Virus record (IMG/VR): IMGVR_UViG_3300012920_000204 | Coordinates: 1 to 27,490 of that record | Reading direction: 5' to 3' (one strand) | DNA: 27,490 nt | DNA from: a virus | The notes under the pieces: model-generated | Databases searched by the model: none | What the model saw: only the letters and a program-made list of their open reading frames with translations | What the model was told of the DNA's origin: nothing | Translations under genes and position numbers: made by a program | Shown here: piece by piece, positions 1 to 21,971 of the stretch | Position numbering within the stretch: the first letter of the stretch is position 1 | How the letters are laid out: each line of letters opens with the position of its first letter

Positions 1-167
1 ACCGTAAGTCCAGAAGCAAGTCCACCGTCAATGCTACCGCTTAAAGCTACATTAACCATTCCCACTGGTGTTGAAGTAAGATCCTTTTCAGAAAAGAACT
101 TTGAATCAGCGAGAATATCCGCACCCTTAACACGGGTGGTTTTCATTAGTTTATCAAGTAATGCCAT
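1..167 (-). CDS. uvsX: UvsX RecA-like recombinase, N-terminal fragment (3' part beyond window)
   Basis: About 55 N-terminal codons are present; the gene runs off the left edge. The translation contains DSKFFSEKD, then a GMVNVALSGSIDGGL stretch. This matches the region of T4 UvsX (ASKFFNEKD, MMNIALSGEITGG) just before its Walker A loop. UvsX is the phage RecA-type strand-exchange protein, which forms filaments on single-stranded DNA coated by gp32 and loaded by UvsY and drives recombination-dependent replication and repair. The start ATG at 165-167 is the only one in frame that gives this N-terminus. It lies about 26 bp downstream of a strong TTTACA/TATAAT promoter, so it has a short leader of roughly 20 nt, without an SD. 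Gene 42 lying upstream, towards uvsX, matches T4 order. Confidence 0.9.
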   Translation of the reverse strand, partial: MALLDKLMKTTRVKGADILADSKFFSEKDLTSTPVGMVNVALSGSIDGGLASGLT

Positions 168-193: not shown

Positions 194-233
194 ATTATAA
201 ACTATATTCCTATGAATGTAAATTAAAAAATGC
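194..233 (-). promoter_or_regulatory. sigma70-type phage promoter of uvsX
   Basis: On the minus strand: GCATTTT (227-233), 4 nt, TTTACA (217-222), 17 bp, TATAAT (194-199). It fires leftward into uvsX, giving that gene its own promoter separate from the modification operon. Confidence 0.8.
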
Positions 234-1460
234 GTCCAATTCTAAAGTATTTGATATCTCACTTCCGTCTTCAGTTTCAACATCTTGCTTTTTATTATTC
301 TGTCTTATGCGTGTAGTTGGAGCAAAGTCGGTCCTTCCTTCCAAGTAATCCAAGACACCCTTCATCATATCTTCAGCTGTTGAAACAGGAACGTTTTGGC
401 AAATGTGATTTACTTTAGAACGAAAGTTTTCACCAACCAATTTAAAATCATCAGGCATCTTCATGATACGAAGGCAATCACGAATACTAATCCAATTATC
501 GGTATAAGGATTTAGTAGAGCTGAAGGCATTGCTCCAATTAAAGATGGTATTTCATTTCCCTTAGGGATGGTAATACCGTGAGCCCAATACCCCTTTCCT
601 TGATCGAGTTTCGTCTGCATGGCACGAGCCCTAGCCCCAACCTTAGAATGGCCGTTGGCTTCCATCCAATCAGCTACATCTGTCAAGCCTTTATCATATC
701 CTCCGTCCGAGTGAACAATAAGATTTTGGGTTTTGGTAAAAGTCTTTTGAAGTTCAGCGATTGTTTTTGTTCCTGTAGCGGCAAGCTGATATTGAAGCCA
801 CGAATTATCGTATGGCGAGTTTTGATTCGCTGTGATATTCATCGGGTCATCCTTAATTGGATCTTGACTAAGAATATCTTCAATGCTTTCCTGAGTCTTG
901 CGATGCCATGGAAAGATTGGCGCCGTTTTGGAATCGGTAAAGAAGTAAAAGGTACGAGGACGCTTTTGCGATAAACCATGAAGGCGGCTTTCGGTATAAT
1001 ACAAGTTAAGGCTATAACCATGCTTTTTACCAATCTCCGCCAACTTATCAGCAACAGGTGACCCTGCTTTAGTAAATAGTCGAGGCGCATTCTCACCCCA
1101 GAATACTCGAGGCTTAACCTTTCCAAGAACGTAATTTGCAGTTAAGTACATCCAGTCGTTTGCTCCAGCATCAACACTGCTATTTACATTTAAGCTTGAA
1201 AGACCGGCACAAGGGCAAACTGTATTAACAACATCAACCTTTTCGGGAACGTAGTTTTCTTTAGCTTCTTCATCTAGGTAAGTATATTCACCGGTGTATC
1301 CTTTTCCGCGAATGTAATCAATAAAGTGTTCATCATTTGCTGCAAAGGGTTTATAGGAAAGAACCCATTCTGGAAGTTGGCCATCCAGCGCATTCATTAT
1401 GCCAATGTTCTCTCCGCCGATTAAAGGAACAATAGTTCCGTATGTAGTTTTCTTTTTCAT
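210..1460 (-). CDS. C5-cytosine DNA methyltransferase family protein
   Basis: A 416-residue protein with the C5-methyltransferase motifs in order. There is a degenerate motif I (PLIGGENIG, 12-20), motif IV with the catalytic Cys (CPCAGLSS, Cys84), motif VI GEN (Glu123-Asn124) and motif VIII Q-K-R-P-R (165-169). A C-terminal RDCLRIMKMPDDF and QNVPVS correspond to motifs IX/X. The family transfers methyl from S-adenosylmethionine to cytosine C5 through a Cys-C6 adduct. The gene is last in the operon starting at 5403 and begins 12 bp after the stop of the kinase-nucleotidyltransferase. It is odd beside a dCMP hydroxymethylase, because hydroxymethylated C5 cannot accept a methyl group normally. 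The extreme C-terminus reads LDAFF, resembling a sliding-clamp-binding tail. Family membership is clear; the target and actual chemistry are not. Confidence 0.85.
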   Translation of the reverse strand: MKKKTTYGTIVPLIGGENIGIMNALDGQLPEWVLSYKPFAANDEHFIDYIRGKGYTGEYTYLDEEAKENYVPEKVDVVNTVCPCAGLSSLNVNSSVDAGANDWMYLTANYVLGKVKPRVFWGENAPRLFTKAGSPVADKLAEIGKKHGYSLNLYYTESRLHGLSQKRPRTFYFFTDSKTAPIFPWHRKTQESIEDILSQDPIKDDPMNITANQNSPYDNSWLQYQLAATGTKTIAELQKTFTKTQNLIVHSDGGYDKGLTDVADWMEANGHSKVGARARAMQTKLDQGKGYWAHGITIPKGNEIPSLIGAMPSALLNPYTDNWISIRDCLRIMKMPDDFKLVGENFRSKVNHICQNVPVSTAEDMMKGVLDYLEGRTDFAPTTRIRQNNKKQDVETEDGSEISNTLELDAFFNLHS

Positions 1461-1471
1461 GGTTATCTGAT

Positions 1472-2962
1472 TTAATTATTCAATTCATTTTTAACAACCC
1501 TTAACATTCTCCACTGTCTTTCAGGGTCGTCGTAGTGCAAAGGAATACAAGTTGCCAAGAGAATTAGACCTCCGTCCAATATATGTTTTACAGGTAAGTT
1601 AAACTCATTTAGTTTCTCTAAGAACACCTTCTTAACAGTTTCGTTTTGCCGTGTGTTGGAAACAATAGAACTATACCCATGATAAAGATCGTGCGCAAGT
1701 TTACACCAATCATAAAAGTTATCTCCGATGGTACCAATCAATCCCCCATAGTTTCCTCTTGGGTCAATAAATTTAAACTGATTTGTATAATGATTGTAAA
1801 GTATGTTACCAAAGTGAAGATCGCCGTGATGAACATCCACAGGTGTAACGTTGTTCCAAACATCATATGCAATATCAATAAGTTTAGACTGTTCTTCAGG
1901 AGTCAAAGGTACATCAGCAAGTCGTGTTTTTGTTTTATTAACCCAGATGTTTTTTGAAAGGCCTTCAAACCCATCACAGTGTTCAAGCGGAGTCGAGAAG
2001 TAATTAGATTTAATCCTAAACAGCTTGTCCATAATAAATGACCAGTTGGCTTCTGAAAGGTTTTCATATTGCATGAGATCTGAAAGCAGTGAACCAGATT
2101 CGTATGACATTATCAAATCGGTTTTATGCGGAAGGATCCTAGGGACAAACATACTCTGTTCGGCCGTGATTGAATTATACCAAGAGCTCTCAGCGTGTAA
2201 TGTATCTACGCTGTGCTTTGACGTATAGTCAGCAGTCTTGGTAACGGTACCAAGATCATCGTTAAATGCAATGTTATTAAACGCTCGACTTTTAAGACGT
2301 AAAAGCTTGGCGCACGTTTCGTGATAAACACTTAGTGTACCAATGTCGTACCATTCGGTTGTTCGCTGATCAACAAATACCAAATCATCGTTAAGTTTTT
2401 CGTATCCCTGCAACGCAGATGAGATATCATAATCAGAAGATTCGTCAAAGGCCTGCTTTGCCAATTCACCGTTCTTAAAAGAATACAAACCTACCAATGC
2501 AACGCCTTCTTTGATGTTTTTCTCAGGCTTGTCAAAGTAATTGGTTCCGTCCCACATACACCAAGAAGAATGGTTGTCAACCTCCTTACACAGTAAGAAG
2601 TCACTTCCAAGATCCATGTTTTCGGTTAAGATGATTGCATCACCAAGCCATACAACAGTGGGGCGAGGAACTTTAATCTCTCCAAAGCCAAGGGCGATTG
2701 CCGGACGTGGACCGTTAAGTGTCTTTTGTTTTACAAATTTAATCTCTGGATATTTCTTAGAGCAATACTCACGAACATCATCAAACTTACCGTCAACAAT
2801 AACAATCTCTTGAATGTCTGCAAGCTTTTTCGCTTGTTCTATAATGTAATCAAGGCAGGGTTTACCGTTAACCCTTACCATGATTTTAGACATGTTATTT
2901 GAAAGCGGCTTTAAGCGTGTTGCCTCTCCAGCCGCAGGAATAATTAAATTAATCTTTTTCAT
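1472..2962 (-). CDS. fused sugar-type nucleotidyltransferase / APH-choline-kinase-like kinase
   Basis: A 496-residue two-domain protein. Residues 1-220 form a nucleotidyltransferase: an AAGEATRLKPLSNNMSK signature near residues 10-26, LGDA at 106-109 (metal-binding Asp) and WYDIGT at 204-209. Residues about 230-496 form a phosphotransferase of the aminoglycoside/choline kinase fold, with HHGDLHFGN (catalytic Asp381) and FIDPRG (Asp400). The domain pair recalls LicC/LicA (CTP-phosphocholine) and MurU/AmgK (UDP-sugar), i.e. phosphorylation and nucleotide activation of one small substrate by one polypeptide. I chose the ATG at 2960-2962, which places the signature at the N-terminus; it overlaps the HAD gene by 14 bp. 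An upstream in-frame ATG at 2989 would add nine unneeded residues. The substrate cannot be read from sequence. Confidence 0.85.
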   Translation of the reverse strand: MKKINLIIPAAGEATRLKPLSNNMSKIMVRVNGKPCLDYIIEQAKKLADIQEIVIVDGKFDDVREYCSKKYPEIKFVKQKTLNGPRPAIALGFGEIKVPRPTVVWLGDAIILTENMDLGSDFLLCKEVDNHSSWCMWDGTNYFDKPEKNIKEGVALVGLYSFKNGELAKQAFDESSDYDISSALQGYEKLNDDLVFVDQRTTEWYDIGTLSVYHETCAKLLRLKSRAFNNIAFNDDLGTVTKTADYTSKHSVDTLHAESSWYNSITAEQSMFVPRILPHKTDLIMSYESGSLLSDLMQYENLSEANWSFIMDKLFRIKSNYFSTPLEHCDGFEGLSKNIWVNKTKTRLADVPLTPEEQSKLIDIAYDVWNNVTPVDVHHGDLHFGNILYNHYTNQFKFIDPRGNYGGLIGTIGDNFYDWCKLAHDLYHGYSSIVSNTRQNETVKKVFLEKLNEFNLPVKHILDGGLILLATCIPLHYDDPERQWRMLRVVKNELNN

Positions 2963-3320
2963 TATAATTCCAATCTTTAAATTGGTCAAGCGTCATGGCT
3001 TTGTCATCAACATAATATGTACTAGCATAAGGTTTACCAAAATGAATTTCATTATAAGGAACACCGTGACGGGATAACCAAGAAGTAGTTATAATGCCAA
3101 TATCCGCGATGATCTTTTCAACATCTCCGTTGTGTGTCAGCATCCTTCTAGCAGAAGAAAGAGTAATGTACCAACCATCATCGGCCATCTTCTGCATCTT
3201 TTCAATAAGAGGAAGGTTGGGTTTGGCTAACCCATACTTTTCATAGCTATCTTTTTTAGAATGATCTGGAAAACAAATCGTGTCGTCAATATCAAAAACA
3301 ATTGATTTTTCTTTTATCAT
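2949..3320 (-). CDS. EcbF/BcbF-type HAD phosphatase (capsule-biosynthesis-like)
   Basis: A 123-residue HAD-superfamily protein. The nucleophile motif is FDIDDT (Asp10, Asp12, Thr14). It is followed by KPNLPLIEKM, a TLSSARRM region (motif II position), a SRHGVPYNEIHFGKPY stretch (motif III Lys) and YVDDKA (motif IV). The series KPN...AR...HGVPY.EI..GKP....YVDD is that of the small cap-less EcbF/BcbF phosphatases from bacterial capsule loci. The start at 3318-3320 follows the glycosyltransferase stop by 1 bp; a longer in-frame start inside that gene would add 11 residues with no family match. It probably removes a phosphate from an intermediate made by its neighbour. Its partners suggest a transferred capsule cassette reused on phage DNA (inference). 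Confidence 0.82.
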   Translation of the reverse strand: MIKEKSIVFDIDDTICFPDHSKKDSYEKYGLAKPNLPLIEKMQKMADDGWYITLSSARRMLTHNGDVEKIIADIGIITTSWLSRHGVPYNEIHFGKPYASTYYVDDKAMTLDQFKDWNYNEKD

Positions 3321-3321
3321 A

Positions 3322-4602
3322 TTACTTGGTTGCAATTTCTTTAAGGCCTTCAAGCAGAGTAGTATTCATGTATGTACCGTCGTAATACTCATCTTTAAGA
3401 GCTTTATCAATAGAGTCCTTTAGTTGATTATATGCATCTGGGTTTTCTTCAAGAAACTTAATCTTATCAAAAAGATCTTTTGAATCTTTTACACGAATAA
3501 AGGCTGGAACATTCAAGTGCTTTTGCTCATCATAAGTTGGATGCAAGAATGGAATTATTCCATAATGAGCCATCTCCCAAAACTTAGCCGTAACCCATCC
3601 TTTTTTAATAGGAATGCAAAAGGTATACTTAACACGAGGAAGCATACTTTGCAATTCATTAAACTTCTTAGGTCCTTTAAATCTGCTATCATCTCCAATG
3701 GTATCGGGATTCCACTTACCATAGATATCAACATCTTGTACATGGTCAAGTATGTACTTTTTTAAATCAGGGTAACGGGACTTTGGAAGGCCTTCGTTAC
3801 ATACAACCATAAAGTTAATATCCTTTACGTTATCTTCAACCTCCTGAGGCGCATCAGAGAAAAACGAATCAAGCGAACCTTCTTGCTGTTCAATAGACTC
3901 GCCTCGCTTTTTACCAATAAGGAATATTGTTTCCATTGCCTTGTATTCTTGGGGAATCTTTGTTGTGATATCCGTTACTGCATCGTATTCTTCTGGAGCG
4001 GTGTGTTCACAAATCTGATCGTATTGCGAATAAATCTTTTTAGGAGGATTCATCAAGTCACGCATCTTCCCAGGGTAAAGACGAGGATCATTTAAAACCA
4101 TAATCCACGGAAGGTCTTTATAGGTATTTAAATAGTGAATGACTGGACCTGCATACAGTTTCTGAGCGTCAAGAGGAGTTGCAAGCTGAGCACGATTCTT
4201 TCGCTGCCTAGCCCATCCTGTAACATTAGAAGTTGCAACCAATCCCTGCAGCATGATAGCAGCATCAACTTTTAAGTCAGGGTTGGTAAGAATAAATTCC
4301 TCCATGAATGCTTGGTTACCGTCAGGGCGAATCACGCCGTCCCTTGCCATAAAAACATTAGACTTCCAATCTGAGAGTCCAGACCATGCATCAATAAAGT
4401 TACGATGTTCGTTTATGCGTTCTTTATCTGCAAGAGGTAAGCGAGAATAATCGCTTTGTCCCAGCATGATAAAAGTGTGCTGAGGGTTATTACGAATAAG
4501 ATTTTCGTATAAGATAGGAGCTTCATTATCTCCGCCTACTGCACCCCAGCTTTCGCTGTCAAATAAAACAGACCTTCCAATTTTTCCAATACCGATTTTC
4601 AT
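3322..4602 (-). CDS. putative GT-B glycosyltransferase, candidate DNA-base glycosyltransferase
   Basis: A 426-residue protein of apparent two-lobe (GT-B) layout. The C-terminal part has FKGPKKFNELQSMLPRVKY, then a KFWEMAHYGIIPFLHP-type segment, then a run of helices (SKDLFDKIKFLEENPDAY...). This resembles the donor-binding half of retaining glycosyltransferases, including T4 alpha-glucosyltransferase, where a conserved Glu lies in E-x-x-x-x-G-x-I-P. Overall similarity to known DNA glycosyltransferases is weak, so the sugar and linkage are unknown. Position argues for modification of hydroxymethylcytosine: it lies 4 bp into the dCMP deaminase gene (start/stop overlap), just downstream of gene 42, and upstream of nucleotide-activation genes. 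Residues 243-248 (SLDSFF) sit in an acidic, probably disordered loop and look like a sliding-clamp-binding motif. Alternative: a non-DNA glycosyltransferase. Confidence 0.68.
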   Translation of the reverse strand: MKIGIGKIGRSVLFDSESWGAVGGDNEAPILYENLIRNNPQHTFIMLGQSDYSRLPLADKERINEHRNFIDAWSGLSDWKSNVFMARDGVIRPDGNQAFMEEFILTNPDLKVDAAIMLQGLVATSNVTGWARQRKNRAQLATPLDAQKLYAGPVIHYLNTYKDLPWIMVLNDPRLYPGKMRDLMNPPKKIYSQYDQICEHTAPEEYDAVTDITTKIPQEYKAMETIFLIGKKRGESIEQQEGSLDSFFSDAPQEVEDNVKDINFMVVCNEGLPKSRYPDLKKYILDHVQDVDIYGKWNPDTIGDDSRFKGPKKFNELQSMLPRVKYTFCIPIKKGWVTAKFWEMAHYGIIPFLHPTYDEQKHLNVPAFIRVKDSKDLFDKIKFLEENPDAYNQLKDSIDKALKDEYYDGTYMNTTLLEGLKEIATK

Positions 4603-5042
4603 TGATCTATATATGTGGTTTCAACACCTGCTTCCCGAAAGAAGGTTTGAGCAAAATCGCACGATTCATTCCAGCGATCTTTCTTTGTATTCTTTTGCAT
4701 TACCACCCTCTTAATACCAACTTGAATTATTGCTTTAGCGCATTCGTGGCAAACGGGTAGTCCATAAACATAAATGGTAGATCCATATAAGGAAACACCC
4801 GTGCGGGATGCGTTATAAATCGCATTCATTTCCGCATGGCAAATCCTTTTGTATTTCAAATCGCGATCATGATAAAGCTCTGGTAAGTCGCTCATTCCAC
4901 GAGGGAATCCATTATATCCTTGTGAAAGAACTTGCCCGCTTTCTCCGACGACAACCGCACCGCATCGAGTTGAGGGATCCTTTGACCAAAAAGAAATTTG
5001 TTTTGCTAAAGCTATATAGCGTTTATCCCAATTGGTAAACAT
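4599..5042 (-). CDS. cd: dCMP deaminase
   Basis: A 147-residue zinc deaminase with CHAEMNAI (His69, Glu71 catalytic) and PVCHEC (Cys98, Cys101). An upstream STRCGAVVV and a NGFPRG segment are typical of deoxycytidylate deaminases. The reaction is dCMP to dUMP, feeding thymidylate synthesis and balancing dCMP use by the neighbouring dCMP hydroxymethylase. It is shorter than T4 Cd (about 193 residues). It is the second gene of the operon starting at 5403; the preceding stop is 4 bp away. A weak AGAGGA lies about 9 nt upstream of the start, one of the few SD-like sites in the window. The next gene overlaps it by 4 bp, suggesting translational coupling. Confidence 0.93.
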   Translation of the reverse strand: MFTNWDKRYIALAKQISFWSKDPSTRCGAVVVGESGQVLSQGYNGFPRGMSDLPELYHDRDLKYKRICHAEMNAIYNASRTGVSLYGSTIYVYGLPVCHECAKAIIQVGIKRVVMQKNTKKDRWNESCDFAQTFFREAGVETTYIDQ

Positions 5043-5046
5043 AAAC

Positions 5047-5403
5047 TTAGTCCTCTGTATCTGAAGGCTTAACTCGATTTAAAAAATCACGATCACGGTC
5101 TTGACCATCGACACCGCCTCGCATAAATGATACTGCAAAGCTTGCATAATTAATCATGTCTTTAAACGAATCTTCAACTGACTCAAAGTTCGGCTCATAG
5201 TTAGGATCGAGTTCCATTGCTTCAACAACACTTTGAGCACGAAGCACTTTAGCGTAAATGATTTCAAGAATTGTCTTTACTCCGCTTGGATAGTAATCGG
5301 ATTGACGAATTCTTGACTGAGGGTTCTGATAGTCGTTTGACTTTTTAATCTGAAGTTCAGCGCATTCTTTTAAAACACGAAGGCTTTCTTTATCGTTATT
5401 CAT
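5047..5403 (-). CDS. DUF1599-like protein (nucleotide modification associated domain 1)
   Basis: A 118-residue, mostly helical protein. KKSNDYQNP, then a Lys-Arg helix (IYAKVLRAQSVVEAM) and ESVEDSFKDMINYASFA fit the DUF1599 pattern (K..DY...K..R...ES..D...DL.NY). This family is all-alpha and related to MazG-type nucleotide pyrophosphohydrolases; it recurs in phage loci for modified nucleotides. The start at 5401-5403 is fixed by the promoter: TATAAT ends exactly 6 nt upstream, so a longer reading frame to 5496 would begin upstream of the transcription start. It is the first gene of the operon containing the deaminase, glycosyltransferase, phosphatase, nucleotidyltransferase-kinase and methyltransferase. 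It may remove an unwanted nucleotide or bind a modified one (inference). Confidence 0.7.
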   Translation of the reverse strand: MNNDKESLRVLKECAELQIKKSNDYQNPQSRIRQSDYYPSGVKTILEIIYAKVLRAQSVVEAMELDPNYEPNFESVEDSFKDMINYASFAVSFMRGGVDGQDRDRDFLNRVKPSDTED

Positions 5404-5409
5404 ATTGCT

Positions 5410-5438
5410 ATTATACACTATATAAGGGTGAATGTAAA
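5410..5438 (-). promoter_or_regulatory. leaderless-type promoter of the modification operon
   Basis: TTTACA (5433-5438), 17 bp, TATAAT (5410-5415), then 6 nt and the ATG at 5403. The expected transcription start coincides with the A of the ATG. It is the only promoter I see for the six genes between 5403 and 210. Confidence 0.8.
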
Positions 5439-5441
5439 TAA

Positions 5442-6107
5442 TTATTTGACAAACTTGAAGTGACGTTCGTACACGTGAAGTGAGCCAACCTGCCAAGTGA
5501 TATCACCAACTTTATAATTGGCTTCACCGTGAAGGTTAATATGAGCAACAAGAGTTTGCAGAACATACAGTTGCCAAGCATAGTCATTGCGATAGCCAAA
5601 GATAACGTCATTGCTTCGCATTTGAACAACTGCGTTTACTTGGTTTCCTCGGATAAGATATTGAACTGCGTTAGTGCAGATAAAGTCAGACATGCCGTTA
5701 ACACAAAAGTCTTCGTGCATTGTCGGCCGTTGGTAAATCATTACCGCTCTGCGGCTTTGGCGATCAACAAGAAGCTGTCTTAAAACCTTTTGGTATTGAT
5801 TGAAGTTTTCTTCGCTGTTGATAAGATACCCATAGTTGGAGTTGATCTTACCATCATCAGAGGAAATGCTTTTCCAGATAGCAGGAGTTTCACCAGGGAT
5901 ATCTTCAACGTTTAAGCTTTGGCTTTCGTACCAATCAATTTCACGAGAGATGTATTCTTCATTAGGTGTACCAAAGATTGCTGGAGCATCAGCAAGAAAG
6001 CTTGCACCAACAAGATCGAGTGTTTTGACTCCAGTTTTGTCTTCTACATATTCTTCATTCTCAAGTGCAGAAATGAAGTAAGAGCGTATGTCTTTTATTG
6101 TTTGCAT
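5442..6107 (-). CDS. 42: dCMP hydroxymethylase
   Basis: A 221-residue protein matching T4 gp42 along most of its length: DKTGVKT, a LVGASFLAD segment, DIPGETP.IW, INSNYG, GMSDFICTN (catalytic Cys144), MRSNDVIFGYRNDYAWQ and VGSLHVY.RHF. It makes 5-hydroxymethyl-dCMP from dCMP and methylene-tetrahydrofolate. The Asp in RNDYAW (Asp175) replaces the Asn of thymidylate synthases and selects cytosine over uracil, so this is a hydroxymethylase rather than ThyA. It ends about 25 residues earlier than T4 gp42 (246), losing only the C-terminal tail. It has its own leaderless-type promoter and directly precedes the modification operon, as in T4-like genomes where gene 42 lies near uvsX. It implies that phage DNA contains hydroxymethylcytosine. 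Confidence 0.95.
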   Translation of the reverse strand: MQTIKDIRSYFISALENEEYVEDKTGVKTLDLVGASFLADAPAIFGTPNEEYISREIDWYESQSLNVEDIPGETPAIWKSISSDDGKINSNYGYLINSEENFNQYQKVLRQLLVDRQSRRAVMIYQRPTMHEDFCVNGMSDFICTNAVQYLIRGNQVNAVVQMRSNDVIFGYRNDYAWQLYVLQTLVAHINLHGEANYKVGDITWQVGSLHVYERHFKFVK

Positions 6108-7631: not shown

Positions 7632-8888
7632 CTATTTTACGGTATGGCCGTAAGGGAGATTTTCTGGCAATGGAAATAGGGAATCCATGGCCGAAAACAG
7701 ATCGGAGAATTTGTCCTCAAAAACATCACCGATGAGCAAATCGGTTAGGGTGCCTTTCAACTCGCCATTTGCCTTTATCAAATCAGCGAAGTTAAAGGTA
7801 GGATGGTAAAAGGCATAAACGATTTTTCTCATTCGTTCAATGGCATCGCACAATGACTTTCCGTATTCGGTAAAGCATTCCGTTTCTGACTTTGATGTGG
7901 TGAGATGGGCGTGAATGGAATCGGCAGCGAGCTCGGCTGATTTAAGAGCAAGAAAAACTCCTGATGAAAAGACAGGATCAAGAAAGGCAAAGGCATCTCC
8001 TACAAGAACCATGCCAGGTGTTGCGCAGTGAGTAGCACGATAACTGTAATCCCCAGTAGCCCAAGTTTGACCAACCTGCTCAGCTGTGGACAAGGAGTCC
8101 TTTACCCATAAGTTATTTTCAATCTCTCGTTCGAGTATCTTCTTGGGATCTTGTGTATCAGAAAAAAGATAATCCCGCTCAGCAACAATGCCCACCGAAA
8201 CACGGTCGCCTTGTTGAGGAATATGCCAGAACCAACCTTTATTGGGTAGTGCGGCAATGGTCGTTGAACCTTCGTCAATACCGCAGTTTCTTTTACCGCC
8301 TTTATAGTAAGTCCAGATGGCCACCTTGTTTAAGTTTGGATCGCGCTGTCTCCACTTTGACTTACCCGAATAAAAACAGTCACGACCCGATGCATCAACT
8401 ATTTGTTTGCAATGGAAAGAGCGTAAAGTGCCTTTGTGTTTGGCAACAAGTCCTGTGACTCTCGCCCGATCTTCGTCGTAAGTGGTAGAAAGAACCTTAC
8501 TTTCGTCAACAAATGTGGCTCCGTTACTCACTGCCTTTTCAATCAGCATTTGATCAAAGTCAGCACGTTCAACTTGCCATGTAATTGAAGAAGGATGATC
8601 CTTGTGCTCAAAGAAGTAAAACGGACTGCTTACCTTTCCTTCTTCAGACGCAAACTGAACACTGTGCTTTTTCTGAAAACCAATTTCATCCATTCGGGAA
8701 ACCAGTCCAAGTCGATCAAGTGTGTACCAACAAAAGGGCATTAAGCTTTCGCCGACGTGATACCTTGGAAACTTTTCCTTTTCCAATACAAGAACACTAT
8801 GGCCTTGTTCGGCAAGAAGCGCTGCAGTAGTACTTCCAGCAGGGCCCGCGCCAATCACAATAACATCCCATGTATCTTTAATGGTCAA
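7632..8888 (-). CDS. FAD-dependent halogenase-like oxidoreductase
   Basis: A 418-residue flavoprotein. The FAD-binding GAGPAGS sits at 13-19 and VLEKEKFPRYHVGES at 34-48. WFWHIP at 219-224 fits the WxWxIP signature of flavin-dependent halogenases. GDAFAFLDPVFSSGVFLA at 297-314 is the second FAD/halide-site segment typical of that family. Lys73/Lys74 in GFQKKHSVQF lie where CmlS-type halogenases have their catalytic Lys. The class uses FADH2, O2 and halide to make HOCl, which is relayed to the Lys. Related non-halogenating reductases and monooxygenases share much of this. It is the last gene of the DNA polymerase operon; its ATG overlaps the stop of the small membrane protein gene. The length is somewhat short for tryptophan halogenases (about 530) and closer to the CmlS core. 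Substrate unknown. Confidence 0.78.
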   Translation of the reverse strand: MTIKDTWDVIVIGAGPAGSTTAALLAEQGHSVLVLEKEKFPRYHVGESLMPFCWYTLDRLGLVSRMDEIGFQKKHSVQFASEEGKVSSPFYFFEHKDHPSSITWQVERADFDQMLIEKAVSNGATFVDESKVLSTTYDEDRARVTGLVAKHKGTLRSFHCKQIVDASGRDCFYSGKSKWRQRDPNLNKVAIWTYYKGGKRNCGIDEGSTTIAALPNKGWFWHIPQQGDRVSVGIVAERDYLFSDTQDPKKILEREIENNLWVKDSLSTAEQVGQTWATGDYSYRATHCATPGMVLVGDAFAFLDPVFSSGVFLALKSAELAADSIHAHLTTSKSETECFTEYGKSLCDAIERMRKIVYAFYHPTFNFADLIKANGELKGTLTDLLIGDVFEDKFSDLFSAMDSLFPLPENLPYGHTVK

Positions 8889-10769: not shown

Positions 10770-13247
10770 TTATCCAAAAAATTGTTCAAGATCGGCCACA
10801 GGTTCTACGTGCCAACCAATTGCATCAAGTATCATCTTGATCGGATCAACGAATGTTTTACTAAACTGCAGATCGTAATCAATGTATCTATCAAGTTCAA
10901 GTTCAGTTGGAAGATGATCCGGAAATGAAATAATGTTTTGCTGTAGCGTGTTAGGCTTTTTAAGATATACAAACTTAATCTTATCACCACTTTGAATCAG
11001 CGGAAACTTTTTATCCAAGCCGCGATCTTTAATAGCTTTATTGTATAGCAAGGAACCTCGCACATGAATAGGTGTACCTTTTTCAAACACTGTGCTGGAG
11101 TTAGCCCACTTACGAAGAGCATTAACTCCACGAGGAAAGGCAACCTTATCAGCGGATAATACGCTGAAGTGCTTTTTGAAAAGTTGAATGGCTTCTTGAG
11201 TTTTACCTTCATCACCAGTCATGATAATCTTGAACATTGCGTTCATGGCTTCACGACAGACTTGAGGAGTTGAACTCTTAATAGCCTCAATACCCATGAT
11301 CTTAATCTTTGGTTCTGCATACTGAACACCTTCGTTATTATGAACATTGAGAATGTATCGTTTCTTTGCAGTCCAGATTCCACGATCAGCAATGGCTTCT
11401 CGTTTCATCACCATGCGATTACAATAAGCAGAGGAATCTTCAGCAAATTTATCAAACGCTTTGGCCAACATTGGCTCAATCGCTTTACTGCCAAACTCAT
11501 CAAGAAAGGCAACAGGATCTTTCGGCTTAAACTTATCAATCACATCCTTCACACCAATGTATAAAGAGTCGGTATCAATCGCAATAACACGATCCTTCTT
11601 TTCTTTGAGAAAGTCATCCAGAAAGTCGTTAACTTTTTCTTCAGCATACTTGATAACCGCCTGTCCAGTAAGAGTGATTCCAGACGCAATGCGAAGATCA
11701 AAGTAGCGAAAGTACTTGTTACCACACGCACCGTAAAGTGAGTTAAGAAGAATCTTTACCGCCGTTTGAGAAGTATCAAGTCTTGCCACATTACTTTCAG
11801 CAACCTTCCTTGCGCCTTTATCCGACTTGCTAACCTTTTCCAAACTCTGCTTGGCAAGAATCATTTCATCTTTAATGCCAACCCTTTTAGCATAAAGCTC
11901 TTCAACAATCTCTGGAATAATACCTTTCTTAGCTGTGCTGAATACCGCACCGTTAGCTGCCTTTGCACCAATAGGGTCCTTCATTGGCAACAGTGTTTCA
12001 GGCGACATATTGTATTGAACAATAAGATTAGGATACAGAGAGTTAAGGTCAAACGACATAACCCAGTCATGCATACCAACATGAGGTTCCTTTACAAAAC
12101 CACCTGGGAATGTTTCGGAATAGTTTTCTTTACTTGGTGGGATTGCAATCTTTTTCTTAGCCAACCGCCGAAAGATAATGCTGTCCCATATCGCTGTTGT
12201 TCCAAGTGTGTCGGTATAATTCACACCACCCAGATAAGCCATGGTTAAGACCAATGTAATAAGGCCTAGCTTTTCTTCCATTCGCTCGATCAGCTCAACG
12301 TCCTTGATATTATAATCAACAAACATTTGATAGTCAGCATCATAAAGATCACGAAGAGTACCAATCTCTGAATAGTCGAGTTTCTTCTCGCCAAGAACCA
12401 CACTTGCAATATGATTAAGTGAATAAGACTCTTGGTTACCATAAGTGTAAGCAAACTTTTTGAACAGCTCCATGTAGTCAAGAGACTGAACTCCGCTTAT
12501 ATCAAAAGTAACTTGAGTCTTACCCATGATAGTAATTTCTCGTCTGTCAATCTTGCCCCAAGGGGAGAAGCTTTTAGCAATGTCTTCCCCAAGCAAAACC
12601 GCGGATCGAGAAACAAGATAAGGAATATCAAAGAAACGTGTATTCCAACCTGTGATAACATCAGGTGTGTATTCAGGTTGCGCCCAGTGATCAATAAAGT
12701 CGTGAAGCATTTCAGCCTCTGATTCAAACTGACGATACTCGATTTGCAGGTGAGTTAGTTTGGACACGGAAGCATCATAAGGCTTGATACCCCATACACG
12801 ATACCGATCTTCACGACTTGACTTATAAGCAATTGTAAGGATTTCGTTTGTAGGATTATCCACATTAGGAAAGCCATCTCCGTAAGAAGTCTCAATGTCA
12901 AGAGAAGCAACATCAATGTTTGCTCGAGAATACTTTATCTCGTCGGGAAACTGACTTTGAATAAAAGCAGGAATGTGACGTGTATTACCGTAAAGCTTAA
13001 AGTCAGGTACGCCGTCGTAAGTCTTTTCAAACTGCCGAACTTCAGCCATCGACTCGAATCGCATGGGCTCAACTGGAGTACCGTCAAGGGCCTTCCATTC
13101 AGTGTCCTCGTTTTTAGACTGAAGAAAAAGCTGAGGACGATACTTAATCTTATGTCTTACTTTGTTGCCGTCGTCATCATAACCTCGATAAAGAAGTTGG
13201 TTACCAAAGCGGTCAACACAAGTATAAAAACCTTCTATTGTAAGCAT
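10770..13247 (-). CDS. 43: T4-type family B DNA polymerase
   Basis: An 825-residue family B polymerase, complete and uninterrupted (T4 gp43 is 898). 3'-5' exonuclease motifs: DIE at 117-119, N202-TRFF-D207, and Y312-NIK-D316. Polymerase motifs: A, FDLNSLYP (Asp400); B, KILLNSLYG (498-506); C, DTDS (558-561). The C-terminus LEQFFG is a sliding-clamp-binding peptide like those of T4-type polymerases. It is the replicative polymerase acting with gp45 and gp44/62. First gene of an operon that also holds MazG-like, primase-like, two unknown proteins and the halogenase. The -10 box ends 6 nt before the ATG, so the mRNA is predicted leaderless. A leaderless message would have no untranslated site for RegA repression, which in T4 acts on the gene 43 region. 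Confidence 0.97.
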   Translation of the reverse strand: MLTIEGFYTCVDRFGNQLLYRGYDDDGNKVRHKIKYRPQLFLQSKNEDTEWKALDGTPVEPMRFESMAEVRQFEKTYDGVPDFKLYGNTRHIPAFIQSQFPDEIKYSRANIDVASLDIETSYGDGFPNVDNPTNEILTIAYKSSREDRYRVWGIKPYDASVSKLTHLQIEYRQFESEAEMLHDFIDHWAQPEYTPDVITGWNTRFFDIPYLVSRSAVLLGEDIAKSFSPWGKIDRREITIMGKTQVTFDISGVQSLDYMELFKKFAYTYGNQESYSLNHIASVVLGEKKLDYSEIGTLRDLYDADYQMFVDYNIKDVELIERMEEKLGLITLVLTMAYLGGVNYTDTLGTTAIWDSIIFRRLAKKKIAIPPSKENYSETFPGGFVKEPHVGMHDWVMSFDLNSLYPNLIVQYNMSPETLLPMKDPIGAKAANGAVFSTAKKGIIPEIVEELYAKRVGIKDEMILAKQSLEKVSKSDKGARKVAESNVARLDTSQTAVKILLNSLYGACGNKYFRYFDLRIASGITLTGQAVIKYAEEKVNDFLDDFLKEKKDRVIAIDTDSLYIGVKDVIDKFKPKDPVAFLDEFGSKAIEPMLAKAFDKFAEDSSAYCNRMVMKREAIADRGIWTAKKRYILNVHNNEGVQYAEPKIKIMGIEAIKSSTPQVCREAMNAMFKIIMTGDEGKTQEAIQLFKKHFSVLSADKVAFPRGVNALRKWANSSTVFEKGTPIHVRGSLLYNKAIKDRGLDKKFPLIQSGDKIKFVYLKKPNTLQQNIISFPDHLPTELELDRYIDYDLQFSKTFVDPIKMILDAIGWHVEPVADLEQFFG

Positions 13248-14077: not shown

Positions 14078-14377
14078 TTAAGCGTAAAATCCAGTCTTTG
14101 TAAAGAATACGTCGTTTGATCCTGTCTCTCCGTCAAGATCCTCGGTTGCGTATATCTCTTCATCATAGTCCTTGCGAACCAAAACACTTTTATTACCTTG
14201 TATGGCAAATACAAAATCCACAGAAGAATCATATCCTGAAGAACCGTTAGGTTGAATATGAATGTACCTTACTGACGACTGGGTATTTTGAACAAGTACT
14301 TGCTGGGCATCTTCAAGCGTTGTAGCAGAGCCTTGCCCTTCAGCAACGGTGATTAAACCAAGTGGCTGAATCTTCAT
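14078..14377 (-). CDS. unknown beta-rich protein, tandem paralogue B (99 aa)
   Basis: Unrecognised function. It is clearly homologous to the next upstream gene: both share DAQQVLVQNT/DSQQVLVQNT, RYIHI/RYIHV, SVLVRKDYDEEI/SVLVRKDYDDEI and an identical C-terminus FTKTGFYA. Strands with small-residue loops suggest a compact beta sandwich. It starts 5 bp after its paralogue's stop. The pair is fed by TATAAATA late elements at 14693-14717, so I suspect virion components (decoration or fibre-associated), as inference. Paralogue B has a longer middle loop (SSGYDSSVDFVFAIQGN). Confidence 0.72.
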   Translation of the reverse strand: MKIQPLGLITVAEGQGSATTLEDAQQVLVQNTQSSVRYIHIQPNGSSGYDSSVDFVFAIQGNKSVLVRKDYDEEIYATEDLDGETGSNDVFFTKTGFYA

Positions 14378-14382
14378 TTGCG

Positions 14383-14670
14383 TTATGCGTAAAAACCAGT
14401 TTTTGTAAAGAGCACGTCAGTTGCTGCACCTGTTCCATTGTCAGAGGTTGAAGCAAAGATTTCATCATCGTAATCTTTACGAACCAAAACACTTTGATTT
14501 GGCTGCAAGTAAAATGATGCAATACGAGTTCCCGTACTACCTTGTTCAACATGAATGTAACGACCACTTGAAGATGTGTTTTGAACAAGCACCTGTTGCG
14601 AGTCGTCAACAGTGGAAGCATTTGCTGTGAGAGATGCAGAAGCTGCAATGTTTAATGGATTAACTTTCAT
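14383..14670 (-). CDS. unknown beta-rich protein, tandem paralogue A (95 aa)
   Basis: Starts MKVNPLNIAASASLTANAST and ends VLFTKTGFYA; paralogue of the following gene (see 14078-14377). It has no signal peptide and no Cys. SD-like bases are absent; the leader after the TATAAATA elements is ACAATAGTATTTTACTT. An identical C-terminal octapeptide and very similar central block, with diverged N-termini, point to an old tandem duplication under constraint on the C-terminal half. Confidence 0.72.
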   Translation of the reverse strand: MKVNPLNIAASASLTANASTVDDSQQVLVQNTSSSGRYIHVEQGSTGTRIASFYLQPNQSVLVRKDYDDEIFASTSDNGTGAATDVLFTKTGFYA

Positions 14671-18403: not shown

Positions 18404-19588
18404 TTAAAATGGAATTGGGCCGGGGTCTTCGTCGGCATTCACTTCTTCAGTTTCCTCAGCATCAGGATTAATCTCTCCTGCGTCAATCTTAGTGTAAAGA
18501 TCCAAGAAGGCGTCTCGGGTTTCTGTTTCAAACCGAGAGATACACATCTTAATTGCAGTAAGACGATTGGCAAAGATGGAATAAGCCTTGGCAATATGGC
18601 AAAGTCGGCGAGTGGAAACCACTTCATCGACACCATCGTCATCAAAGGTCTTGCGAATAATCTTACTCCATGCACACAGTAAAGTGATAAAGTCGGAATC
18701 ATCAACATCATAAGCGCGCATGTGCTTTTCAACAATCTTGGATTCAATTGCTGAAGAAGGGAAAGGCTGATTAATATTCGCCACAAAGCGCTCAAGGAAA
18801 GCTTCATCAATAACCTGTGCGGAGACGAACCTACCGTCATCGCTACCTTGTCCTTTTGTATTTGCAGTGGCAATGATATTAAATCCTCTAGCAGGAGAAA
18901 CCGTTTCACCAGTCTTTTTAATCAAAACAGGATTGCCTTCAAGGACCCCTTGCAGACACATGATCTTGTTAGAGCCTCGGTCAATTTCATCAATAAGAAG
19001 AACAGCTCCGGCTTCCATGGCCTTAATCACAGGTCCTTTTTGGAAAACCGTTTCCCCGTCGATAAGACGGAAACCACCAATCAAATCATCTTCATCGGTC
19101 TCAGGCGAGATTTGAACTCGCACATATTCACGCTTGGCCTTAGCACAAGCCTGCTCGACCATCATTGTTTTACCGTTACCGCTCATGCCAGAAATGTAAA
19201 CTGGAAAGAACATTTGCGAGTCGATGATCTTCTTAATGTTTTTATATTCACCCCACTGGACAAAGTTTTTATTCACAGTAGGAACATAAACCTCTTCACT
19301 GTTAACACTGCGAACGGAACCACTGGACATTTGAAATGCCGTGTTTGCGGTTGGTGCAGAAGCAGGAACAGGAGCAGGGGTCGGAATCATTCCGTCCTCA
19401 AAGGATTCGAGATTCCAAACCCCACGTTTGCCTGCAGAGGCTGAAGGAATAAGGAAAGTTGCTTTAGCTGTGTTATAGCTATACCCGTTGTTTCGAGCAG
19501 CGGTATATACATCAGCAGTCTTTGCAACAGGAAATTTACCCATTGCTTTTAGTTCATTTATGGTGTTAATCACGTTATCGTTTTTCAT
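18404..19588 (-). CDS. cobS-like: CobS/MoxR-like AAA+ ATPase
   Basis: A 394-residue protein. Residues 1-65 form a helical N-terminal module (NNGYSYNTAKATFLI), then a Pro/Ala-rich linker (70-84), then the AAA+ core. Walker A is GMSGNGKT (134-141), followed by SPETDEDDLIGGFR, Walker B VLLIDEID (196-203), sensor 1 NIIATANTKG, and a VIDEAFLERF arginine-finger region. The arrangement is that of CobS, the ATPase partner of CobT in aerobic cobaltochelatase, and of MoxR proteins that act with VWA partners. Similar genes in marine T4-like phages are annotated cobS. The partner is the VWA protein encoded immediately upstream. No cobalt-chelatase large subunit (CobN) is present in the window, so another remodelling target is as likely. 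Confidence 0.87.
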   Translation of the reverse strand: MKNDNVINTINELKAMGKFPVAKTADVYTAARNNGYSYNTAKATFLIPSASAGKRGVWNLESFEDGMIPTPAPVPASAPTANTAFQMSSGSVRSVNSEEVYVPTVNKNFVQWGEYKNIKKIIDSQMFFPVYISGMSGNGKTMMVEQACAKAKREYVRVQISPETDEDDLIGGFRLIDGETVFQKGPVIKAMEAGAVLLIDEIDRGSNKIMCLQGVLEGNPVLIKKTGETVSPARGFNIIATANTKGQGSDDGRFVSAQVIDEAFLERFVANINQPFPSSAIESKIVEKHMRAYDVDDSDFITLLCAWSKIIRKTFDDDGVDEVVSTRRLCHIAKAYSIFANRLTAIKMCISRFETETRDAFLDLYTKIDAGEINPDAEETEEVNADEDPGPIPF

Positions 19589-19620
19589 ATTGTAGTGGAG
19601 TGTAGTTTGGTTACTGGTAT

Positions 19621-19660
19621 ATTATACCATAATTTTGGGAAACTGTAAATAATAAAGTTA
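19621..19660 (-). promoter_or_regulatory. promoter of the CobS-like gene
   Basis: TAACTTT (19654-19660), 4 nt, TTTACA (19644-19649), 17 bp, TATAAT (19621-19626). Here the ATG is 32 nt past the -10, leaving a leader of about 25 nt rich in CCA/CTAC and lacking an SD. Confidence 0.8.
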
Positions 19661-19664
19661 CCCT

Positions 19665-21971
19665 TTATGATATAAGATCGCTAAATTTGGATAAAAATAC
19701 GCGGGAAGACCGCTTGTCTCTGTTCTGATTAGAAAACTTTTTAGCAAGTTTGTTGACATCAGCCGCTTTACTGTAATCAAGATCTTCTTCTATTTCGAGC
19801 TCGGAATCATCAATCCTTACTTTATTTGATTCAATAACAAAGTACCCGTCATACCCTAAGCCATCTTCTATGAACAGCGTTCTACTTTTCTGTTTCACAG
19901 TCTTCTTTCGCAGTTCCCTGAATTCTTCTGTGCCTTCATACCAATTTGTTGCTTTAGGAAATTTAGAGGAATGAACTATTGCAGCAACACTCGCCGCCTT
20001 GGCACTTCGGTTATCTCCAAGAAAGAAGCAAATCGCGGAAGAACCCGTAAGCTTTTTGAAGTTAATGATAAGCTGCCTGTAAGTTGACTGCCGGTGACGA
20101 GATCGAAAGGCATCAGGTCCAATCAATTCATTACCCCAACGAAGGTATTCCTTCCTAGAATAAAAACCATTCTCTAGAGTTGAGGGATCAAATTCTTTTT
20201 CCTTAGTGACATTATCATCATCTGTAATATAATTTAAAGCGCTTGACTCTCCATCGGTAAGAAACATGGTATGAAGCTTTTGGACTTTGTGCCGAGCTCG
20301 GAAGGTCTTTACAATTTGTTCGGCACAAATAATAGTATCAAAGAGCGGGGTTCCACCCATAGTCTCCATATCACTTTGAAATTGATTACCCCACCCATTG
20401 CTATTATTTCCGACAAACAACTCTTTACACGTATCTTCAAATTCTCTTTTTCCAATAGTTGAATTTAATAGTTCAAAGATGTGCGTTCCTGTTATGTCCG
20501 TTATTGCTCCAACTTGATCTTCTGGGGCTTCACTTTGACCTCGCCATTTCCGCCCAGTTGTAAAACCGTAAACCGTAAAGGGTATACCAACCGCTTTACA
20601 AAAGAAAGCCAATTGAAGGGTTTGCTCAATCACATCGTGAAGTACTCTGGCCATACTCCCACTCCAGTCAATAAAGAATACCATTCCATGATCTTTTGAA
20701 GTGGCCAACCTTGTAACCGACTTGAAGATTTGATCATCGTATTTGTAAGAGTGAAGCTTGTTTGGATCGATAGATCCTGTTGCCGATGTCTGTGCTCGGG
20801 AATATTCGTATGCCGATTTTTTACGCTCGAATTCTCTGACAAGAAGAGCAACGTTCTTTTTGGATACTTTCTTAAAATTGGTCCAAACCGCATCTTCGGT
20901 GGGATCGGTCATTAAACTATTGTATAGTGAAAGCCTTTGTTTCCTTGCGGCTCGAACCTTGTCAAGAGAAGAAATGCACTTATCTATCTGCTCAAGACTG
21001 GGTGCATCGGCATAAAGTGTTCCGTCCGACTTTTCCTGAGAGTTTTCCAGTTCTTCGTCAAGAGCACGTTGGGTTTCTGAGATGGCCTCGGAATAGTCAT
21101 AGTCATCCTTACCTTCAGTGCCAACAGATTTTTCTGCCAATGATTCTTCAGCTTCTTCGTCTTTATTAAGAGTGTCGGCTGTTTGATCAGATTCATCTTT
21201 ACCATTTTCGTTTTGATCTTGGTCAGAAACAGAATCATTTTTATCACCGTCTTCTTCATTCATTGAAGGGTCAGGTGTGTTTCCACGAATGTCAGTGTCT
21301 AGACTATCATCATCTCCGCCATCCTCTCCGGAATCTTTCCCAGGGTTGAACGGTTCTTCGGGTTCTTCCTGTGTCGAAGGCTTCTCCTTTGGAAGCTTGG
21401 AAATAATCTCTCCGCAAATATCAAGTACCTCTTCGTAGGTTTCAGCCTTTAAGCACTTGTTATAAATCTCGGTTTCCCATTCGTCAAACTGAACATTAAT
21501 AAGATGTCGCAGTTTACCTTTAAGGTTAAGACGATCAATAAAGTTAAGTTCATTGATATCTCGGTCCCTTATTTTAAAAAAGTCGTTATTAAGAAGATAG
21601 GTATAGCCATTTGTAAATGCTCTTACCAAGCCAGGGAATGAAGCAAGGATCTTACGTTCAATGCGAATGTCTTCAACAATATTGGCAATGTCAAAGGGAG
21701 CTTCTTTTCCAAAGCGGTCGTGGTATTGGGCAATCCCGTCTTCTGGTGTCCAATGTGCGTGGCCTACTTCGTGTCCAACAAGAAGGTCGGAAACAGACTT
21801 ATCATCAAGATTCCAAGTAGGAAGGCCAAGGACTCGTTTCTTAACATCAAAGAAAGCGGTTTTATAATTACCTTGGCGAACTCGAATGTTCTCTTTAGCA
21901 AGAAGCTTGGCGAGTTGCCGCTGGTGCTCAAAGCTAACGTTATGCTGTGGCTGATTAAGTGTATCTAACAT
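19665..21971 (-). CDS. cobT-like: HExxH metallopeptidase-like / VWA (CobT-like) protein
   Basis: A 768-residue three-part protein. Residues 1-190: a peptidase-like domain with HEVGH (67-71) and a downstream VEDIRIER (Glu100), which could complete a zinc site. Residues about 200-315: a very acidic linker (EEPEEP, GEDGGDDDS, DEEAEES). Residues about 425-640: a VWA domain with the MIDAS start DWSGSM (435-440) and FLTDGES. The combination matches CobT-like VWA proteins that pair with a CobS/MoxR ATPase, here the next gene, under a separate promoter. CobT itself lacks a zincin active site as far as I recall, so the HExxH is notable. Possible roles are chelatase assistance, remodelling or proteolysis of a host complex. 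Start without SD (TTTTTATATT-ATG). Confidence 0.8.
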   Translation of the reverse strand: MLDTLNQPQHNVSFEHQRQLAKLLAKENIRVRQGNYKTAFFDVKKRVLGLPTWNLDDKSVSDLLVGHEVGHAHWTPEDGIAQYHDRFGKEAPFDIANIVEDIRIERKILASFPGLVRAFTNGYTYLLNNDFFKIRDRDINELNFIDRLNLKGKLRHLINVQFDEWETEIYNKCLKAETYEEVLDICGEIISKLPKEKPSTQEEPEEPFNPGKDSGEDGGDDDSLDTDIRGNTPDPSMNEEDGDKNDSVSDQDQNENGKDESDQTADTLNKDEEAEESLAEKSVGTEGKDDYDYSEAISETQRALDEELENSQEKSDGTLYADAPSLEQIDKCISSLDKVRAARKQRLSLYNSLMTDPTEDAVWTNFKKVSKKNVALLVREFERKKSAYEYSRAQTSATGSIDPNKLHSYKYDDQIFKSVTRLATSKDHGMVFFIDWSGSMARVLHDVIEQTLQLAFFCKAVGIPFTVYGFTTGRKWRGQSEAPEDQVGAITDITGTHIFELLNSTIGKREFEDTCKELFVGNNSNGWGNQFQSDMETMGGTPLFDTIICAEQIVKTFRARHKVQKLHTMFLTDGESSALNYITDDDNVTKEKEFDPSTLENGFYSRKEYLRWGNELIGPDAFRSRHRQSTYRQLIINFKKLTGSSAICFFLGDNRSAKAASVAAIVHSSKFPKATNWYEGTEEFRELRKKTVKQKSRTLFIEDGLGYDGYFVIESNKVRIDDSELEIEEDLDYSKAADVNKLAKKFSNQNRDKRSSRVFLSKFSDLIS

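Follow-up and report, generated by a model that had tools for sequence, protein, structure and literature searches.

Predicted glycosylation of 5-hydroxymethylcytosine with a phage-activated sugar in a marine T4-like virus

We analyzed a 27,490-base virus contig (IMG/VR record IMGVR_UViG_3300012920_000204, positions 1 to 27,490; hereafter the window), which comes from a T4-like marine bacteriophage. Its minus strand carries, at 210-6107, a seven-gene locus in which gp42, a T4-type dCMP hydroxymethylase, is accompanied by a GT-B-like glycosyltransferase (GT), an activation trio of HAD phosphatase, kinase and nucleotidyltransferase (NTase), and a C5-cytosine methyltransferase (MTase). We put the probability at roughly three in four that this locus makes DNA with glycosylated 5-hydroxymethylcytosine (hmC), using a sugar activated by the phage itself. 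What the analysis shows is which genes are present, that catalytic residues are conserved, that folds are similar, and that the genes are linked while the cassette has been exchanged repeatedly. The locus is real and, judged from its gene context, its predicted function is well supported; it would be a variant of phage cytosine glycosylation and not a new category.

Base enzyme, glycosyltransferase and activation trio

The window's base enzyme belongs with T4-type gp42. It is 57% identical to T4 gp42 across 219 amino acids, and its best match in the Protein Data Bank (PDB) is T4 dCMP hydroxymethylase (1b49, 282 bits), with thymidylate synthases (TS) at 38 bits or less. The catalytic Cys144 and the Asp175 that replaces the TS Asn, both named in an initial annotation made from the sequence alone, are present and kept in aligned homologues. 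The homologues in phages JS98, LC53 and Thanatos-2 form a separate group, 25-28% identical to window gp42, with the motif LDFYLQ against NDYAWQ in the window. RB69-type (Mosigvirus) phages are now reported to carry arabinosyl-5-hydroxycytosine, made by way of a 5-hydroxy-dCMP synthase that shares homology with the hmC enzyme; the same work reports the former arabinosyl-hmC assignment for RB69 (PMC6024577) to have been wrong (PMC13390438). The RB69 modification cited in the initial annotation is thus now reported with a different base and base enzyme, which makes the combination of gp42 and trio seen here more distinctive. We infer from sequence that the JS98, LC53 and Thanatos enzymes are also of the 5-hydroxy-dCMP synthase type. 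The window enzyme falls outside that type at 57% identity to T4 gp42 and, since it groups with gp42 and apart from the RB69-type enzymes, is predicted to make hmC, unlike them.

We utilized AlphaFold to model the GT (mean predicted local distance difference test, pLDDT, 77; predicted template-modelling score, pTM, 0.79). Against all PDB chains, T4 beta-glucosyltransferase (BGT) ranked first (E 1.6e-7, TM 0.45-0.54) and other GT-B enzymes scored E 3e-6 or worse; in a viral fold library, the match ranked second (E 4.8e-25) carries the name DNA beta-glucosyltransferase. The model thus bears out the GT-B-like assignment at the level of fold, whereas family evidence from sequence stayed sub-threshold (GT10, 21.8 vs 23.9) and a PDB sequence search gave nothing credible. 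The alpha-glucosyltransferase family PF11440 had no match in the window or related records, in a search where control sequences also gave none. On the strength of the model, we propose that the enzyme is a DNA-hmC glycosyltransferase.

The NTase and kinase are fused in one protein. Its N-terminal NTase half matches NTP_transferase (PF00483, 51.5 bits vs a cut-off of 21.2), and its fold resembles GalU, RmlA, HddC and LicC, with fold matches mostly to sugar-1-phosphate nucleotidyltransferases. The kinase half had no Pfam match of its own; its motif HGDLHxxN...DPR is invariant or nearly so across 11 homologues. The HAD phosphatase, at first called EcbF/BcbF-like, is a relative of that group and not a TIGR01689 member (75.4 bits vs a curated cut-off of 162); it matches phrog_1238 at 77 bits and has intact DxD and DDK motifs.

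The initial annotation had regarded this capsule-type cassette as newly joined to gene 42. That claim is not supported as stated, as homologues already lie beside a gp42 homologue in RB69/JS98/LC53/Thanatos-type phages: the HAD protein is a relative of RB69 orf051c and of an LC53 'capsule biosynthesis protein', the fusion is a homologue of RB69 ORF53_52c, JS98 and LC53 have homologues of both next to their base enzyme, and Thanatos has the fusion homologue there. Some of the RB69-type homologues are annotated 'capsule biosynthesis protein' or 'phosphoheptose isomerase'; because of this adjacency to the base enzyme, the capsule link is an annotation echo of a known DNA-modification neighbourhood. 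Some of these neighbourhoods have been tied to DNA arabinosylation or pentosylation (PMC6024577, PMC12838424, PMC13390438), and inactivation of TH1_060, the Thanatos homologue of the fusion, almost blocked phage propagation (PMC12838424).

Linkage and cassette exchange in related loci

Two IMG/VR scans, with one duplicate contig removed, yielded 54 loci with this GT, which form 26 clusters when grouped at 95% identity. Among the loci with at least 5 kb upstream, gp42 was present in 34 of 35; the MTase lay between GT and uvsX in all 46 loci holding both genes; and the set of phosphatase, kinase and NTase occurred in 28 of 28 full spans. The gene set is kept and the gene order is shuffled. Seen again in 54 contigs, the linkage is far beyond chance, and it contradicts the counter-case of the initial annotation, in which the trio never accompanies gene 42.

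Distant members of the GT family occur with the trio in three unrelated phages, Pseudoalteromonas XG4, Enterococcus 9183 and Agathobaculum AB434P2, and in each of them the TS homologue has the dCMP-type Asp. The nearest isolate, Pseudoalteromonas phage vB_Psh_XG4 (PP712099, unannotated; 158 kb, deposited complete), has the order gp42-HAD-fusion-GT-second GT-MTase, followed by gp56; a literature search on XG4 DNA found no paper. The AB434P2 and 9183 TS homologues (L047 3838-4500; L040 6403-7236) are predicted from their Asp to hydroxymethylate cytosine, not uracil, the AB434P2 one being annotated as a dUMP hydroxymethyltransferase.

The trio comes in three unlike architectures. Type A, as in the window, consists of the HAD phosphatase and the NTase-kinase fusion. 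Type B (L009, L025, L030 and others) consists of a HAD-kinase fusion and a cytidylyltransferase-like (HldE/TagD-type) NTase, which scores best as an HldE NTase domain (68-77 bits) and also as a glycerol-3-phosphate cytidylyltransferase (55-57 bits). In L070, HAD, kinase and NTase are three separate genes just ahead of the GT. Type B loci carry extras that differ by lineage: a GalE/HldD-like epimerase in L025, a GDP-mannose 4,6-dehydratase-like enzyme in L067 (387 bits vs a cut-off of 415), an additional glycosyltransferase in L065 and a 305-amino acid protein in L009. The constant presence of the three activities fits serial activation of a host sugar phosphate, and the dehydratase and epimerase suggest hexose-like sugars in some relatives.

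Type A and B cassettes replace each other, and have done so repeatedly. The near-isogenic loci L006 (A) and L009 (B) have 97.2% identity across 9.0 kb of upstream sequence and 93.8% across 5.6 kb on the downstream side, with different cassettes in between. Their DNA identity is 100% in gp42 and drops to 81-97% through the GT, where amino acid-changing base differences number 4 in residues 1-185 and 53 in residues 186-425. Synonymous change rises there too, so we read this pattern as a gradient left by recombination; it does not prove selection. On quick MTase and GT trees, parsimony requires at least 4-5 changes of cassette type, of which well-supported branches force 3-4. Gene swapping may therefore alter the sugar coat of the DNA. 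A bolder extension, which we rate as somewhat less likely than not, is that the lineage rotates its hmC sugar by swapping whole cassettes together with the donor-side half of the GT, giving near-identical phages with different coats and several undescribed glycosyl-hmC bases, with the ever-present MTase recruited to act on hmC or near it.

Predicted pathway and competing explanations

In the proposed pathway, gp42 would convert dCMP to hydroxymethyl-dCMP, which would replace C in the DNA. A host sugar phosphate would be phosphorylated at C1 by the kinase half of the fusion and would lose its other phosphate through the HAD enzyme; the NTase half would join the sugar-1-phosphate to an NTP, much as in heptose activation by HddA/GmhB/HddC or HldE/GmhB. 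Like T4 BGT, the GT-B enzyme would then move the sugar onto hmC, and the glycosylated DNA would be protected from DNA-cleaving defences. The initial annotation had likewise proposed a phage-made activated donor put on hmC; gp42, trio and DNA-type GT do occur together in relatives, and the reaction order, sugar, acceptor, resulting modification and protection are what we infer.

Several points weigh against this reading. Its evidence consists of genes, folds and linkage, and the window is a 27-kb fragment. The GT matches no curated family above threshold, and its similarity to T4 BGT profiles is weak (hhalign E 0.0064, probability 6%); in that alignment, K340 and E343, invariant in the GT family, pair with T4 BGT R269 and E272, which we take to contact the donor nucleotide. 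HAD and NTase relatives are also present in cyanophage sugar-gene clusters, so these two genes alone are not diagnostic. The C5-MTase, a call upheld by PF00145 (53 bits vs a cut-off of 22) and by intact catalytic motifs PC, ENA, QxRxR and NVP (positions 82, 122, 165 and 356), sits oddly in a phage that lacks plain C, since complete replacement by hmC should give it few sites to work on; its substrate may be leftover C, host DNA or hmC. Finally, a T4-type gp56 dCTPase was not found in a 170-kb relative, so hmC may replace only part of the C in the window lineage, unless dCTP is removed by some other enzyme. XG4 has such a gp56 beside its modification cluster, which makes full C replacement plausible there, as read from its genes.

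Other candidates for these roles were considered. A TET/JBP dioxygenase (PF12851), as an explanation of the MTase, had no match in 12 related records, in a search without a positive control match. For the DUF1599-like protein, a role as dCTPase of the gp56 or MazG type was rejected, since hhalign comparisons with T4 gp56 and with the window's MazG protein gave it no backing. Two relatives gave a weak match to gp1-like dNMP kinase. Separately, the ThyA of cyanophage S-TIM54 (L046 6117-6959), whose gene lies a few genes away from a window MTase homologue, has Asp at the TS Asn position, which suggests a dCMP-type enzyme in such cyanophages.

Among the alternatives, an RB69-type route is unlikely but the strongest: the locus would make an activated pentose (arabinose) and thus arabinosyl-hmC or arabinosyl-hydroxycytosine. 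The homology of fusion and HAD to RB69 ORF53_52c and orf051c, in the same gp43-uvsX interval (PMC6024577), is what favours it. However, the TS homologue is a true gp42, only about 27% identical to the 5-hydroxy-dCMP synthase group; the fusion is just 21-26% identical to RB69-type fusions; a GT profile search found no match in LC53 or JS98; and 9 related records, XG4 and the 170-kb relative among them, yielded no SIS (KdsD-type arabinose-5-phosphate isomerase) domain.

We consider it quite improbable that the kinase-NTase works like LicA/LicC and yields a CDP-alcohol such as CDP-choline, from which the GT-B enzyme puts a phospho-alcohol or similar group on hmC. LicC is the top PDB sequence-profile match of the NTase half (46 bits), APH-type kinases include choline kinases, and the secondary score of the type B NTase points the same way. 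Yet such routes need no phosphatase and the HAD phosphatase is always present, the fold matches of the NTase half are mostly to sugar-1-phosphate enzymes, and the epimerase or dehydratase of related cassettes points to sugars. A T4-like use of host UDP-glucose, giving plain glucosyl-hmC and leaving the trio for something else, is very improbable too; it would agree with a GT fold nearest T4 BGT, but the trio adjoins the GT in all 28 assessable loci and the C-terminal half of the GT diverges with cassette type in the L006/L009 pair. We give least credence to a cassette that modifies the host's surface polysaccharide for superinfection exclusion and is next to gp42 by accident: despite the capsule annotations of HAD relatives and the cyanophage sugar clusters, linkage with gp42 and the MTase is near-absolute over 26 GT clusters and recurs in unrelated phages, the GT fold is nearest a DNA-modifying enzyme, and the only match among 84,980 bacterial and archaeal species was a Flavobacteriaceae metagenome-assembled contig also listed in IMG/VR, where a contig agrees with it in length and coordinates, in a scan that would miss distant relatives because it uses short peptide patterns.

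Genome setting and comparison with known systems

Every gene of the window's T4-like core is on the minus strand: uvsW-like helicase, gp47, gp46, gp45, gp44, gp62, regA (PF01818), gp43 and, at the low end, uvsX, with a gp55-like protein assigned by position. The module occupies the gp43-uvsX interval, T4's place for gp42 and b-gt. All seven open reading frames of the initial annotation were recovered (Table 1). Probable starts are ATG 5403 (DUF1599-like), 3320 (HAD) and 2962 (fusion). Deaminase and GT overlap by 4 bases and HAD and fusion by 14, with gaps of 1 base (GT/HAD) and 11 bases (fusion/MTase), so the genes from deaminase through MTase are likely a single transcription unit. The deaminase call is secure against its PF00383 cut-off of 25; the DUF1599-like call is weaker than first claimed, its likeness to PF07659 falling under the cut-off of 25, and the gene adjoins gp42 in most relatives.

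Table 1 Features of the modification module and its flanks in the window
Feature	Position	Strand	Basis
dCMP hydroxymethylase (gp42)	5442..6107	-	57% identity to T4 gp42, 1b49 match, Cys144/Asp175
DUF1599-like ('nucleotide modification associated domain 1') protein	5047..5403	-	PF07659 20.2 bits, sub-cut-off
dCMP deaminase	4599..5042	-	PF00383 73 bits, phrog_174 150 bits
GT-B-like glycosyltransferase, proposed DNA-hmC glycosyltransferase	3322..4602	-	AlphaFold model and fold matches
HAD phosphatase	2949..3320	-	TIGR01689 75 bits, phrog_1238 77 bits, motifs
Sugar-1-phosphate nucleotidyltransferase and APH-type kinase fusion	1472..2962	-	PF00483, fold, kinase motif
C5-cytosine methyltransferase	210..1460	-	PF00145 53 bits, motifs
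uvsX (recA-like) start, module flank	1..162	-	Sequence; full-length uvsX next in relatives
DNA polymerase gp43, other interval flank	10770..13247	-	45-49% identity to marine T4-like phage polymerases

Elsewhere on the minus strand, a flavin-dependent halogenase-like protein (7632-8888; PF04820 109 bits, CmlS-like 199 bits vs a cut-off of 900, motif WFWHIP) lies just upstream of gp42 and was seen in the nearest relatives L003-L005 only. Between gp45 and gp46 (18404-21971) are a MoxR-like AAA ATPase and, upstream of it, a 768-amino acid protein without a Pfam match, VWA/CobT-like by eye. Tandem paralogous small proteins of 99 and 95 amino acids, the latter without a Pfam match, lie at 14078-14670.

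The known routes to glycosylated cytosine that we found pair hmC with host UDP-glucose (T4) or 5-hydroxycytosine with phage-made arabinose (RB69 type). In this marine lineage, whose polymerase comes closest to those of cyanophage-type phages, the phage would itself make the donor for T4-type hmC. A naturally exchangeable donor cassette predicts new DNA bases, and the L006/L009 pair is a ready comparison to learn whether escape from particular defences depends on the sugar. The locus family offers new DNA glycosyltransferases, with XG4 as a cultured entry point.

The RB69/JS98/Serratia LC53/Shewanella Thanatos group shares with the window a homologous NTase-kinase fusion beside a TS-family base enzyme in the gp43-uvsX interval and, in JS98 and LC53, a HAD phosphatase homologue. 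It differs in its base enzyme, of the 5-hydroxy-dCMP synthase type, and in its GT family; RB69 and LC53 have an SIS-type isomerase, of which none was found in the window's relatives, and the window adds the C5-MTase. LC53 and Thanatos also have a Peptidase U32 family protein nearby, within the arabinosyl/pentosyl-cytosine cluster (LC53 and Thanatos-2: L041 11660-13167; L043 13407-14540), and the LC53 cluster holds a chorismate mutase domain protein. These resemble enzymes of prephenate-dependent RNA hydroxylation and are possibly relevant to 5-hydroxycytosine.

Bacillus phage G likewise clusters a C5-MTase, AGT-like GTs, an NTase and a HAD protein (gp301-gp313), as separate genes and with another GT family (PF11440, 41 bits); a second TS-family gene lies a few kb from that cluster (L045; record 233.5 kb). 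Heptose activation (HldE/GmhB, HddA/GmhB/HddC) uses a kinase, HAD phosphatase and NTase in series as well, whereas the window kinase is of the APH type, is fused otherwise and scores below all curated cut-offs. T4 has the same gp42 family, the same genome interval and a GT of similar predicted fold, but draws on host UDP-glucose and has no activation trio between gp43 and uvsX. XG4 holds gp42, HAD, NTase-kinase, GT and C5-MTase in one cluster, at 29-44% identity to the window and with an extra, second GT-like protein.

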